Positions 40,894 to 44,069 of a stretch of DNA of 64,000 nucleotides are shown piece after piece; positions within the stretch are counted from its first letter, which is position 1, and each line of letters starts with the position of its first letter. The stretch lies in the NCBI GenBank assembly GCA_021806225.1, contig JAJZXW010000015.1, forward strand, positions 62,001 through 126,000. Reading direction: 5' to 3'. Source of the DNA: Nitrospirota bacterium. Lineage in GTDB: Bacteria; Nitrospirota; Leptospirillia; Leptospirillales; Leptospirillaceae. A program made the translations under genes and the position numbers. The notes under the pieces were generated by a model. The model was not told where the DNA came from. It made no database searches and was given only the letters and a program-made list of their open reading frames with translations.

Positions 40894-41214
40894 TTATCCC
40901 CGGGCGGGTCTTTCCCGGGCCCGGGAAAGGGAGAGAATTGAGCAGACAAGTGGAGCCTCCGAAACTTCCGTCTGGCAGCCGAGACGGTATTCGGGTTCGA
41001 GCATCATGGCCTTGGCCAGAAAGTCTTCCTTGGGGTTCCGGGCTCCCAGCGAATCCAATCCCTCGACGATCTTTACGAGACAGGTCCCGCAGGCCGCATT
41101 CCCACCGCAAACGAAGCCGAAGGTGATTCCGTTGGCCATGGCTCCCTGAAGAATGGTCTGCCCCGGAAGAATCTCTATTTCACGATCGAGTTCGATGATC
41201 TTGACGGAGGGCAT
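40894..41214 (-). CDS. [2Fe-2S] ferredoxin
   Basis: A 106-residue plant/adrenodoxin-type ferredoxin. Cysteine ligands are in FVCGGNAACGTCLVKI (C-x5-C-x2-C) and LGCQT about 35 residues later. EILPGQTILQGAMANGI is the usual first helix. The C terminus (SLSRARERPARG) is encoded across a perfect 20-bp palindrome. It could serve Fe-S assembly or oxygenases. It ends 31 bp from the convergent lpxC end. Confidence 0.85.
   Translation of the reverse strand: MPSVKIIELDREIEILPGQTILQGAMANGITFGFVCGGNAACGTCLVKIVEGLDSLGARNPKEDFLAKAMMLEPEYRLGCQTEVSEAPLVCSILSLSRARERPARG
40910..40929. repeat. Perfect 20-bp palindrome at the ferredoxin 3' end
   Basis: CTTTCCCGGGCCCGGGAAAG is self-complementary and lies inside the ferredoxin coding end, between it and convergent lpxC. 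It would form a strong hairpin in transcripts from either side. No T run follows, so factor-independent termination is uncertain. Confidence 0.6.
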
Positions 41215-41234: not shown

Positions 41235-41858
41235 TCAGTGTCCGTAGAGCCTGTCGACGAGACCACGAACCGCCACTCTGGCGACGACATCGAATGTGGC
41301 GGGAGTCGACGGGAAAACGATCTTCTCGTATCCACGCCCTTCCCCCACACCTTCCCAGACAATGCGGTCCTGCCGGATGTCGTAAATCCTGGCATAGACA
41401 CGAACCTGTTCGGCACCACCGGCAATTTCGGCCATCTGGATCTGTGTCTCGAGCAGGTATCGGACTCCCAGGCGCTTTCCAAAGGTCCGTGCGGCCGTCA
41501 TGCCCCGAATGCTGTGGGCCGAGATGTGCGGTTCCATCTGGTTCCAGAGGGAGGCGAGCGAGCTGTCTTTCCCGAGTCTTTGTCCGACCTGGGATTCAAG
41601 GAGAAGGTTGCCGGGTGAGGGGTTCCGGGTATTCATCTCAGTATCGATCAGAGCCCCGATGGCCGAGGCATCCTTCGCTGTTCCGGATCCGGCCACGGTG
41701 GGAGTGATCGCGACCCCGTCCCGGGTGAGAGTTGCGGGGGAAAAGCCGTCGGCCATGTAGGATTCTTTGGAGAGGTTGTTGATCGAGTCGGCGCAGGAAG
41801 GAAGCAATAAAAGAAGGATCGGGAAGGCAAAATTACGGATTTGGTTTTTCAGGGTCAT
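41235..41858 (-). CDS. Lipoprotein, possibly CsgG-like fold
   Basis: A 207-residue protein with a lipoprotein signal peptide: NQIRNFAFPILLLLLPSC, with the lipobox LPSC placing Cys 22 as the lipidated residue. The mature part has GKRLGVRYLLETQI, VRVYARIYDIRQDRIVWEG and an alternating beta pattern that recalls the CsgG/LpoB-type periplasmic fold. The role is unknown. Its start overlaps the bifunctional-nuclease gene by 26 nt, and the ferredoxin gene follows by 20 bp. Confidence 0.65.
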   Translation of the reverse strand: MTLKNQIRNFAFPILLLLLPSCADSINNLSKESYMADGFSPATLTRDGVAITPTVAGSGTAKDASAIGALIDTEMNTRNPSPGNLLLESQVGQRLGKDSSLASLWNQMEPHISAHSIRGMTAARTFGKRLGVRYLLETQIQMAEIAGGAEQVRVYARIYDIRQDRIVWEGVGEGRGYEKIVFPSTPATFDVVARVAVRGLVDRLYGH

Positions 41859-42282
41859 CAGTTTTGTCCATTAATTGTGAAAAGTCCATGTGGGGTGGGG
41901 TTTTCTTAAGAATTCCCTCTTTCACGAAAATGGGGACCTGCCCCCGGATGGCGATGGCTACGGCGTCGCTGGGACGGGAGTCGATCGAAAACTCCGCACT
42001 GTCCGACAGCAGATGAAGGGTGGCGTAGTATGTCTCCCCCTCGAGCCTGTTGATGACGGCGGACAAGAGCTTCACATTGATGGAAGCCAGGAGGGAAATG
42101 AAAAGATCGTGCGTCTGCGGCCGGTCAGGGTGAGAACGGGCGAGGCCCATCGAAATGGCCTGGGCTTCGAAAGGTCCGACCCACACCGGAAGCGTCCATT
42201 CCCGGCTTTCGTCCTGAAGGATCAGAATATAGGCTTGGTTCGTTGCGTCGAAGAAAATTTCCCTGACGAAGACCTGGATCAT
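41833..42282 (-). CDS. Bifunctional nuclease-domain (BFN/DUF151) protein
   Basis: A 149-residue protein from ATG 42282, with AAGGAG upstream. Conserved features are ILQDESREWTLPVWVGPFEAQAI, the TH motif before DLFISLL, and SRPSDAVAIAIR (about 105-116), the hallmark of the DUF151 family. Plant and bacterial members have been reported as nucleases, and bacterial ones may regulate rather than cut. Together with the lipoprotein and ferredoxin it forms a minus-strand run. Confidence 0.82.
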   Translation of the reverse strand: MIQVFVREIFFDATNQAYILILQDESREWTLPVWVGPFEAQAISMGLARSHPDRPQTHDLFISLLASINVKLLSAVINRLEGETYYATLHLLSDSAEFSIDSRPSDAVAIAIRGQVPIFVKEGILKKTPPHMDFSQLMDKTDDPEKPNP

Positions 42283-42383
42283 GGAAGGACTCCTTTCCGG
42301 AGTATTTCCGGGTTTTGATTCTATTCTACCATTGAAAAGCACGGGATGGAAAACGCTGATTCCTCTGGTATTCCGAATCGAGT

Positions 42384-42408
42384 GAAACATTCGTGTTTCA
42401 ATATTGAA
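42384..42408. promoter_or_regulatory. Overlapping palindromes in the divergent gap
   Basis: GAAACA-TTCG-TGTTTC (42384-42399) and the perfect palindrome TTCAATATTGAA (42397-42408) overlap in the gap between the minus-strand nuclease-domain gene and the plus-strand 44-residue gene. They may bind a regulator or form a 5' hairpin. TATGAT at 42422-42427 could be a -10 box for the plus strand. Confidence 0.4.
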
Positions 42409-42533
42409 GCACTATCAATTCTATGATATGGTCTCAGGGCGGGGGATTTGGGGGTCTCCCGAATAGGATTATTTCTGAGAGAGAAGGTTTTCCTGACCTG
42501 GACCGAAGGGTCTCAAAAAAAGGGAGGACAATT

Positions 42534-42668
42534 ATGAAGAAGATTTCCGATCGTGGAGAGTCCAAGGGAATGTTGGCGGTGGTAATGGTCGCTGGTCTTT
42601 GGTTCGGGCTTATCGCCGTCTTCGACCATATTTCCATGCTCCAGAATCACTGGATGGGTTCTTGGTGA
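42534..42668 (+). CDS. 44-residue single-span membrane peptide
   Basis: Starts at ATG 42534 with GGGAGGA seven bases upstream. A charged N terminus (MKKISDRGESKG) precedes one span (MLAVVMVAGLWFGLIAVF) and a polar C terminus with His and Trp (DHISMLQNHWMGSW). It has a private promoter region and an intrinsic terminator 27 bp after the stop, so it is a monocistronic small gene. Function unknown; such peptides often stabilise oxidase or transport complexes. Confidence 0.65.
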   Translation: MKKISDRGESKGMLAVVMVAGLWFGLIAVFDHISMLQNHWMGSW

Positions 42669-42695
42669 TTCTTTTTTCGAAATGAGATAAAAAAA

Positions 42696-42724
42696 GGGTA
42701 GCCGGAAGGCTACCCTTTTTTTTG
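42696..42724. terminator. Bidirectional intrinsic terminator
   Basis: GGGTAGCC-GGAA-GGCTACCC is a perfect 8-bp stem with a four-base loop, flanked by six A on the left and nine T on the right. It serves the 44-residue gene on the plus strand and rnc on the minus strand. Confidence 0.9.
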
Positions 42725-42742: not shown

Positions 42743-43816
42743 TCAGGACCCGGAAGAACCTTCTGGATGTTGCGGTCCCGAGACAAGGGTCAGGACGGGT
42801 TCAGCGGGAGATTCCGCAGTCGCAATGCCGGACTCCTCAAGGGAGTGGCTTTCCGGAATGGAGGACGTCACTGCGTCTGGGCTGGCTGCCGGGACCTCTT
42901 CCGCAGACGAAGACTCCTCTTGGGGAGATTTGGAAGGAATGTCGGGCATGAAACCTTCCTGGATCCTCCGCCAAAGATTTTCGAGGGCCGCAAAGCCAGC
43001 GCCCCTTTTTGTTCCCCCCGACGCCTGCTCGAGCAGAATGCTTCTCAGAAAGACCCCCATGACAAATCGGCGCTGATGGGACGGCCCGGATTCTTCCACC
43101 AGAAGGATTTCCGGAGTTCCTCCGAAATGCTGCTGGGCCCATTTCTGGATCAGGAGCTTGTAGTTCGGAGGGTTCTTCCCTCGTTCGCGGGTCTTTGGAA
43201 GGTCCTGCTCCGGAGAAGCCGCAGGTAGACGCCGGACCTCCCGTGGGGGGGAGGACTCGATGGCGCGAAGAATCTCCTGCAGCGGCTGGGCAAACCACGG
43301 GATCAGGATCTGGCGAGCGGTCTCCAGTCCATATTCGCAGTAAATGGCCGCGGCAAGCGATTCGAAGGTGTCGGCAAGAAGGGACTGGTTCTCCCGTTCT
43401 CCTGAAGAATGGCTCCCCTTGCCAAGAATCATGTAGGACCCGAGATCCATGCGTCGGGCGATCGATGCAAGGGTCTGGGTGCTCACGATTGTGGAAAAAA
43501 CCTGCCCGACCTCCCCCTCCGTGGCCTGAGGCCACATGTTGAGGAGGTATTCGCTGACAATGAGCCCGACAACCCGGTCTCCGAGAAATTCAAGGCGCTC
43601 ATAATTGGGAATGGGCTTTTTTCGACCCCGTTCATGAGAGGCTGAGCGATGGGTCAAGGCCTCTTCTATGCGGAGGCTTTCCTTGAATGGAAGGCCGAGC
43701 ATCCGGATCAGAGTCTCCGCTGATTTTGGGGTGTTCCCCTGCCGGACCTCTCCCAACGGAACCTCCAATCTAGTTTTGTTCGTTCCCGGTGGTGCTGGAT
43801 TAGCGGAATTGATCAT
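42743..43816 (-). CDS. rnc: Ribonuclease III with acidic C-terminal tail
   Basis: Double-stranded RNA endonuclease for rRNA and mRNA processing. About 357 residues from ATG 43816 (GGAGAG upstream); a longer start at 43861 is possible. Catalytic signature NYERLEFLGDRVVGLIVSEYL (usual GDAVL is GDRVV here) and the second acidic site ADTFESLAAAIY. A linker leads to the dsRNA-binding domain (NYKLLIQKWAQQ...GFAALENLWRRI). About 75 extra residues follow, rich in Ser, Pro and Glu, absent from typical about 230-residue family members. Confidence 0.92.
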   Translation of the reverse strand: MINSANPAPPGTNKTRLEVPLGEVRQGNTPKSAETLIRMLGLPFKESLRIEEALTHRSASHERGRKKPIPNYERLEFLGDRVVGLIVSEYLLNMWPQATEGEVGQVFSTIVSTQTLASIARRMDLGSYMILGKGSHSSGERENQSLLADTFESLAAAIYCEYGLETARQILIPWFAQPLQEILRAIESSPPREVRRLPAASPEQDLPKTRERGKNPPNYKLLIQKWAQQHFGGTPEILLVEESGPSHQRRFVMGVFLRSILLEQASGGTKRGAGFAALENLWRRIQEGFMPDIPSKSPQEESSSAEEVPAASPDAVTSSIPESHSLEESGIATAESPAEPVLTLVSGPQHPEGSSGS

Positions 43817-44069
43817 CGAAAAAGAGCTCTCCCACCTCCGGATCCCGGGGAGAACAGCCACGTTCCAGAGGTGCAGGTTTTCATCATAGCATATTTTTCA
43901 GGAGGGAATTGTGTTTGGGATCACGCGAAAGGAGGAGGGAGGGTCGTGGACAGGGTGATCCGAGCGCGGTGGGAACGGGAAGTCTCCTGCAGTTTCGGAC
44001 CGATGTCGCCGTGAAAGGGCGGATTGCCCGTCCCGCTCGGGATCTCATAACGTGTCGGGTGTCTGGCCT

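Follow-up and report, generated by a model that had tools for sequence, protein, structure and literature searches.

A 44-codon reading frame, placed between a divergent nuclease-domain gene and the convergent rnc gene, raises the question of whether such a small membrane peptide (peptide A) stands alone or belongs to a wider regulated system. The window, namely the whole 64,000-nucleotide stretch that was analysed, lies on contig C38 of a 1.43-Mb genome that is 67 % complete. A sequence-only reading of the window had presented the frame as a real, independently regulated small gene without a known family. The gene is indeed separately placed and belongs to no curated family; nevertheless, it is not a lone orphan, as the following sections describe. 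For comparison, a family set of 21 genomes (G000–G020; 14 of the genus and 7 others) was used within a searched sample of 295 genomes.

Architecture of the peptide A locus

The frame of A opens with an ATG at 42534 and closes with a stop codon at 42666–42668 (Table 1). The AlphaFold2 model consists of one helix (residues 5–42, mean pLDDT 81) and gives no information on a partner. The strong ribosome site reported before is present, and so is the perfect bidirectional terminator: the two 15-nt arms (42689–42703 and 42708–42722) pair perfectly, and since an A-run precedes and a T-run follows them, the terminator should be usable from both strands and is common to A and rnc. The monocistronic arrangement proposed for A is a prediction from position, based on the convergent rnc and the divergent nuclease-domain gene. 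The listed start of the nuclease-domain gene is probably too far upstream, with the real start likely near 42283. On the minus strand, a ferredoxin gene (40894–41214) and a 207-aa ORF (41235–41858), the latter having no match in Pfam or NCBIfam, form a run with the nuclease-domain gene.

Table 1. Features around the peptide A gene, in window coordinates
Feature	Position	Strand	Basis
Nuclease-domain gene (bifunctional nuclease), divergent from A	41833..42390	-	PF02577
Extra half-site TGAAACA, four bases before the operator	42383..42389	+	Read from sequence
Operator TGTTTCAATATTGAAGCA	42394..42411	.	1 mismatch to TGTTTCA-N4-TGAAACA; overlaps A -35
-35 element TTGAAG of A, overlapped by the operator	42404..42409	+	Promoter alignment, pattern scan
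Extended -10 element TGATATGGT of A	42424..42432	+	17-base spacer between -35 and -10 hexamers
Ribosome site GGGAGG of A	42522..42527	+	Read from sequence; kept in A upstream alignment
Peptide A MKKISDRGESKGMLAVVMVAGLWFGLIAVFDHISMLQNHWMGSW, 44 aa, single-helix membrane protein	42534..42668	+	ORF, conservation, AlphaFold2
Bidirectional intrinsic terminator, common to A and rnc	42689..42722	.	Hairpin arms; downstream hairpin kept in relatives
rnc, ribonuclease III, convergent to A (stop at 42743)	42743..43861	-	TIGR02191 above cut-off

Neither Pfam nor NCBIfam gave a match above cut-off for A, in line with the claim of no known family. Known small oxidase subunits (FixQ/CcoQ, CydX etc.) returned no Pfam match at E ≤ 1 for A or for its relative B (see below), and no known oxidase subunit matched either peptide in sequence searches. 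Subunit IIa of the ba3 oxidase (CoxIIa, PF08113), considered first because of a resemblance and then rejected, had no profile match at the A locus in 21 genomes. Beyond the family, matches stayed weak, reaching 0.0038 with A and 0.00034 with B at best; most were situated inside long ORFs, and we regard them as helices that matched by chance. Profile matches in the PDB were unrelated helices (E 0.05 and worse), and the Rfam matches at the A locus were all far below gathering, being mostly the terminator.

Conservation and loss of peptide A

Peptide A is a protein-coding small gene under purifying selection. It occurs in 12 of the 21 family genomes (Leptospirillum kin), comprising 7 of the 14 genus genomes (G000, G002, G006, G008, G009, G012, and G013) and 5 of the 7 beyond the genus (G015, G017, G018, G019, and G020), while the remaining 274 of the 295 genomes yielded just weak matches in other contexts. 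All 44 residues are identical in G000, G006, G009, and G013, and the codon changes separating G000 from the other three are exclusively synonymous (15 synonymous and 0 nonsynonymous against G013, 13 and 0 against G006, 11 and 0 against G009). The sequence-only reading had named loss of the frame among relatives as its own refutation; the frame is kept, and the gene that it called real is real. Across 11 aligned copies, the invariant columns are M1, K2, S5, D6, G8, G21, L26, F30, N38, and G42. The His/Trp-rich tail pointed out earlier holds within the genus and gives way to NHxPIG beyond it; these His/Trp residues do not make up the conserved core.

Gene order around A is kept among the carriers. 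Beyond the genus (L051 in G017, L052 in G018, and L054 in G015), a 2Fe-2S ferredoxin gene lies between the nuclease-domain gene and A, accompanied by a TusA-like gene recognised by eye from the ORF lists; the window ferredoxin sits on the opposite side of the nuclease-domain gene from A.

In five genus genomes (G001, G003, G005, G007, and G011), the gap between the nuclease-domain gene and rnc is present and A is absent from it. In the rnc tree, these five genomes together with G010 form one supported clade, so a single loss accounts for them. A further absence is possible in G014, where the nuclease-domain gene was not found. In the gap of G001 (L081, G001:C46), a different ORF of approximately 85 residues (MTVIEKSRVLNWAKTIG...) occurs where A is missing. 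Furthermore, nine family genomes (G001, G003, G004, G005, G007, G010, G011, G014, and G016) carry a shorter RNase III-like match, approximately 40 % identical to rnc and away from the rnc locus, which is the sole match found in G004 and G016.

The 18-bp operator at the A promoter

The palindromes noticed upstream of A (GTGTTTCAAT/ATTGAAGCAC, 42393–42412) correspond to an 18-bp operator with the consensus TGTTTCA-N4-TGAAACA, which was fixed after the sequences had been inspected. The scan at no more than one mismatch covered 17 genomes (12 A carriers and 5 A-less genomes, leaving out G004, G010, G014, and G016) and located the operator upstream of A in 10 of the 12 carriers. The A operator of G018 has 2 mismatches, and the best site of G017 has 5, so that A stands there with no operator. 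A TGAAAC half-site also precedes 6 of the 7 genus copies in the promoter alignment. At no more than 2 mismatches, 7 genomes contained 71 sites versus 16 for the reversed control pattern. In G015, the sole single-contig genome of the family, 15 such sites were found. One belongs to A and two to B, 11 fall inside ORFs, and the remaining one is intergenic, beyond where a transposase-like ORF ends. No gene of this genome other than A and B has the operator at its promoter. Hence, the claim of independent regulation is wrong insofar as the operator of A also serves other genes. The parS site of ParB was rejected, by reasoning alone, as the identity of the palindrome, because parS has a spacing of N2, whereas this site has N4 and is promoter-bound.

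A could also be read as a membrane peptide of toxin-like or holin-like character, stray and specific to its lineage, with the palindrome a coincidence. A is small, hydrophobic and cleanly lost in one sub-clade, as such a peptide might be. Nevertheless, neither an antitoxin RNA nor a partner is seen (the Rfam matches being far below gathering), A is inherited vertically in a kept neighbourhood with dN near 0, and the operator is kept across genera, which makes this reading very improbable.

The position of the operator differs between lineages. Copies of A in G015, G019, and G020 have the operator across their -10 and start region, and this position suggests repression, as a protein bound there should block RNA polymerase. 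In the genus, the operator overlaps the -35 element with its centre near -37, where the sign of its effect on A is ambiguous and a bound protein could also activate.

Peptide B and the adjoining sigma-54 activator

Peptide B is a one-helix peptide of 37–45 residues (e.g. MSGAKNLTFVILAAFPFLLMAVFEKIDHALKGGLGGF in G000), encoded directly after a sigma-54 activator gene in 13 genomes and, like A, restricted to the family in the phylum sample. By its domain content, the gene before B is assigned as a sigma-54 enhancer-binding activator: Sigma54_activat and the Fis-type HTH_8 are above cut-off, and the GAFTGA loop is present in 13/13 B-linked copies. Its N-terminus (L117, L104, and L088), approximately 130 residues long, contains cysteines that recur, matches nothing in Pfam, and could be a redox or metal sensor. 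In the g2 genomes G014 and G018, an activator with GSFTGA occurs and no B follows it.

In the profile comparison of A with B, the score was 30.1 (probability 91 %) and the alignment spans nearly the whole length. The maximum of 150 shuffles that kept helix and flank composition was 19.9, and reversed B scored 7.9; on this basis, A and B are taken as paralogues, with B a remote one whose homology to A extends beyond helix composition. No third paralogue was seen in the loci retrieved.

At least one operator site of no more than 3 mismatches is located at the activator stop or B promoter in 11 of the 13 B loci, and in 11 of 13 the stop codon of the activator gene is where the sites begin. At B, the window genome has weak sites, with 3 and 4 mismatches. 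In G001 and G007, the activator and B are present with neither an operator of ≤3 mismatches nor a good sigma-54 match. Conversely, in G006 and G008, A carries the operator and neither activator nor B was found, both assemblies being incomplete; the assemblies with no close activator are 69–89 % complete.

The position of B right behind the activator gene in 13 genomes would also suit a pair of regulatory peptides rather than subunits, in which B feeds back on the activator or a membrane sensor, acting like connector or phage-shock peptides, and A is the resting-state version; the desaturase and ccoN genes described below would then be ordinary regulon members. Since the G015 operator marks only the promoters of A and B, the switch does not need the oxidase, which favours such peptides. 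In addition, the genus peptide resembles the two-component connector SafA (PF17073; E 0.0086) in 7 of 11 members. That resemblance is below the Pfam gathering cut-off (16.5 bits versus 27) and absent in the other 4 members, so SafA was rejected as the identity of A, and neither a sensor nor a membrane partner was found linked to the activator. Peptides of this regulatory kind are somewhat unlikely, in our estimate.

Two promoter classes under one operator

The promoters of A and B belong to different classes, sigma-70-type and sigma-54, respectively. The pattern TTGAnn-N14-TGn-TAnnnT matches 12/12 A promoters and 0/23 B, desaturase, and ccoN regions, and occurs once in the 64-kb window. For sigma-54, a 12-point score was built on the -24 GG / -12 GC element with a pass at ≥10, a value that the window reaches approximately 0.03 times per 200 bases. 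The score passed in 11 of 13 B promoters (failing in G001 and G007), in 4/4 desaturase upstream regions, in 5 of the 6 site-bearing ccoN upstream regions (failing in G002 C73), and in 0/12 A promoters. The -12 of genus B promoters is TTGA/TTGT rather than TTGC. Both the score and the pattern were fixed post hoc, with the promoters already inspected; the operator search that located the desaturase and ccoN sites has no bearing on the sigma-54 result, whereas the sigma-70 pattern is dependent on the A promoters.

These promoter arrangements are also relevant to a reading in which A and B are co-induced partners instead of alternatives, with the operator read by a different regulator or activating A in the genus. 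The operator centre near -37 would be suitable for this. Moreover, sites persist in G003, G005, G006, and G008, where no close activator was found, and G001 and G007 possess the activator and B without a site. Against these points, the operator lies over the -10/start region of A in G015, G019, and G020; nearly all the other intergenic sites examined are followed by a sigma-54 promoter, and promoters of this class depend on an activator of that kind; the sites at B begin at the activator's stop codon in most loci; and the genomes with no activator are the incomplete ones mentioned above. This reading is judged distinctly unlikely.

Desaturase and ccoN genes preceded by the operator

In the genus, the operator also precedes an acyl-ACP desaturase gene and one type of the cbb3-oxidase gene ccoN. 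The desaturase was identified by PF03405 in G005 and G008 and by eye in G001 and G003, and its sites are kept in G003 and G005, where no close activator was found. Site-bearing ccoN genes of one type occur in G000, G008, G009, and G012, while that on C73 of G002 is of another type and has the operator with no sigma-54 match; PF00115 was tested in G002. Contig C127 of G002 ends before ccoN would be reached; the gene is inferred there from near-identical upstream sequence. The ccoN scan took 23 of 26 loci, leaving out the partial copies L201, L202, and L209; a start motif was found in 18, and the five loci with none were examined separately. Among the 18 genus ccoN loci scanned, 16 have no site of ≤3 mismatches (one with only 136 bases upstream). 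The link between ccoN and the operator is confined to the genus, since no site of ≤4 mismatches lies within 700 bp of five ccoN genes from other genera.

A second, paralogous activator with GSFTGA instead of GAFTGA is located divergently beside ccoN in G000 and G002 (L211, G000:C53, 9481–10893; L212, G002:C87, 6957–8402). In G012, the site-bearing ccoN has a cytochrome c peroxidase gene as its divergent neighbour. The G012 ccoN frame (L124, G012:C55, ~1411–2456) starts at approximately codon 150, immediately following the conserved promoter and operator; truncation, recombination or an assembly join would account for this.

According to a report on NaCl-adapted L. ferriphilum, cytochrome c peroxidase rises 10.9x together with CcoN and fatty acid desaturase, each at 4.9x, among 26 named up-regulated genes and alongside 43 up-regulated hypothetical proteins (PMC9053815). 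In the same data, two sigma-54 regulators fall (4.3x and 10.2x); either may be the B-linked activator, which would count against the switch proposed below (PMC9053815).

A proposed switch between A and B

Terminal oxidation and the membrane are the functions indicated by the co-regulated genes, and A and B are therefore read as interchangeable versions of one component of a respiratory complex, either a small subunit or a modulator, swapped via the shared operator; this reading is tentative, its chances being a little short of even. A and B would be two forms of one small single-helix membrane protein that serves a respiratory membrane complex, either as an accessory subunit or by modulating its activity; the best candidate for this complex is the cbb3-type terminal oxidase. 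During ordinary growth, A would be made from its sigma-70-type promoter, and B would be made from the sigma-54 promoter once the adjoining activator is on. The B-linked activator, or its close paralogue beside ccoN, would bind the 18-bp palindrome, activating B from an upstream site (as well as one ccoN type and the acyl-ACP desaturase in the genus) and turning A down where it lies on top of the A promoter. The cell would thereby swap A for B on changing its oxidase and membrane lipids. The strongest gaps against this switch are the lack of an activator found in G006 and G008, B with no site in G001 and G007, A with no site in G017, and the genus-limited ccoN link.

A more specific version of the switch, in which one sigma-54 activator exchanges two paralogous single-helix subunits of a terminal oxidase, each of approximately 40 residues, repressing A and inducing B as well as an alternative ccoN and the lipid desaturase, which uses O2, and thus retunes respiration and membrane in extreme acidophiles, is doubtful. 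The prediction itself is simple, namely two tiny membrane paralogues with opposite promoter classes and one common operator. It names operator, candidate activator, and regulon together, and gives an otherwise orphan small protein a function-bearing context.

Comparison with known systems

No description of the A/B gene pair was found in the literature searched (one open-access library). NmpR of Myxococcus xanthus is a sigma-54 activator of an oxygen-utilisation regulon that acts through paired palindromic enhancers (GCGCA-N5-TGCGC) and controls a cbb3 oxidase (PMC11841059). It thus resembles the A/B system in its sigma-54 activator, palindromes, and cbb3 oxidase, but has another operator, is a phosphorelay response regulator, and is not accompanied by a small-protein pair in the text available (PMC11841059). 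CcoM, a 36-aa subunit of the Pseudomonas stutzeri cbb3 oxidase, is similarly tiny and is linked to cbb3 oxidase and low oxygen (PMC10433244). The likeness is one of description; A and B, in contrast, are two paralogues whose promoters belong to opposite classes, and their partner is putative.

Regulators such as NtrC at glnAp1/glnAp2, and TyrR, repress a sigma-70 promoter by overlap and activate elsewhere, and the TyrR boxes are 18-bp palindromes as well. There, however, two promoters serve the same gene, whereas in the A/B system two promoters serve two paralogues. In the case of PspF–psp, a sigma-54 activator controls small membrane proteins, but the operator and the proteins differ from those of A/B, and we know of no sigma-70-driven paralogue in that system. 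Should the switch be true, relatives of biomining iron oxidisers would have a bacterial counterpart to the isoforms of oxidase subunits that are regulated by oxygen. The yeast COX5a/COX5b pair shows such an oxygen-dependent isoform swap, with paralogous oxidase subunits under opposite control; compared with A and B, the yeast pair is eukaryotic and involves larger proteins and other regulators.
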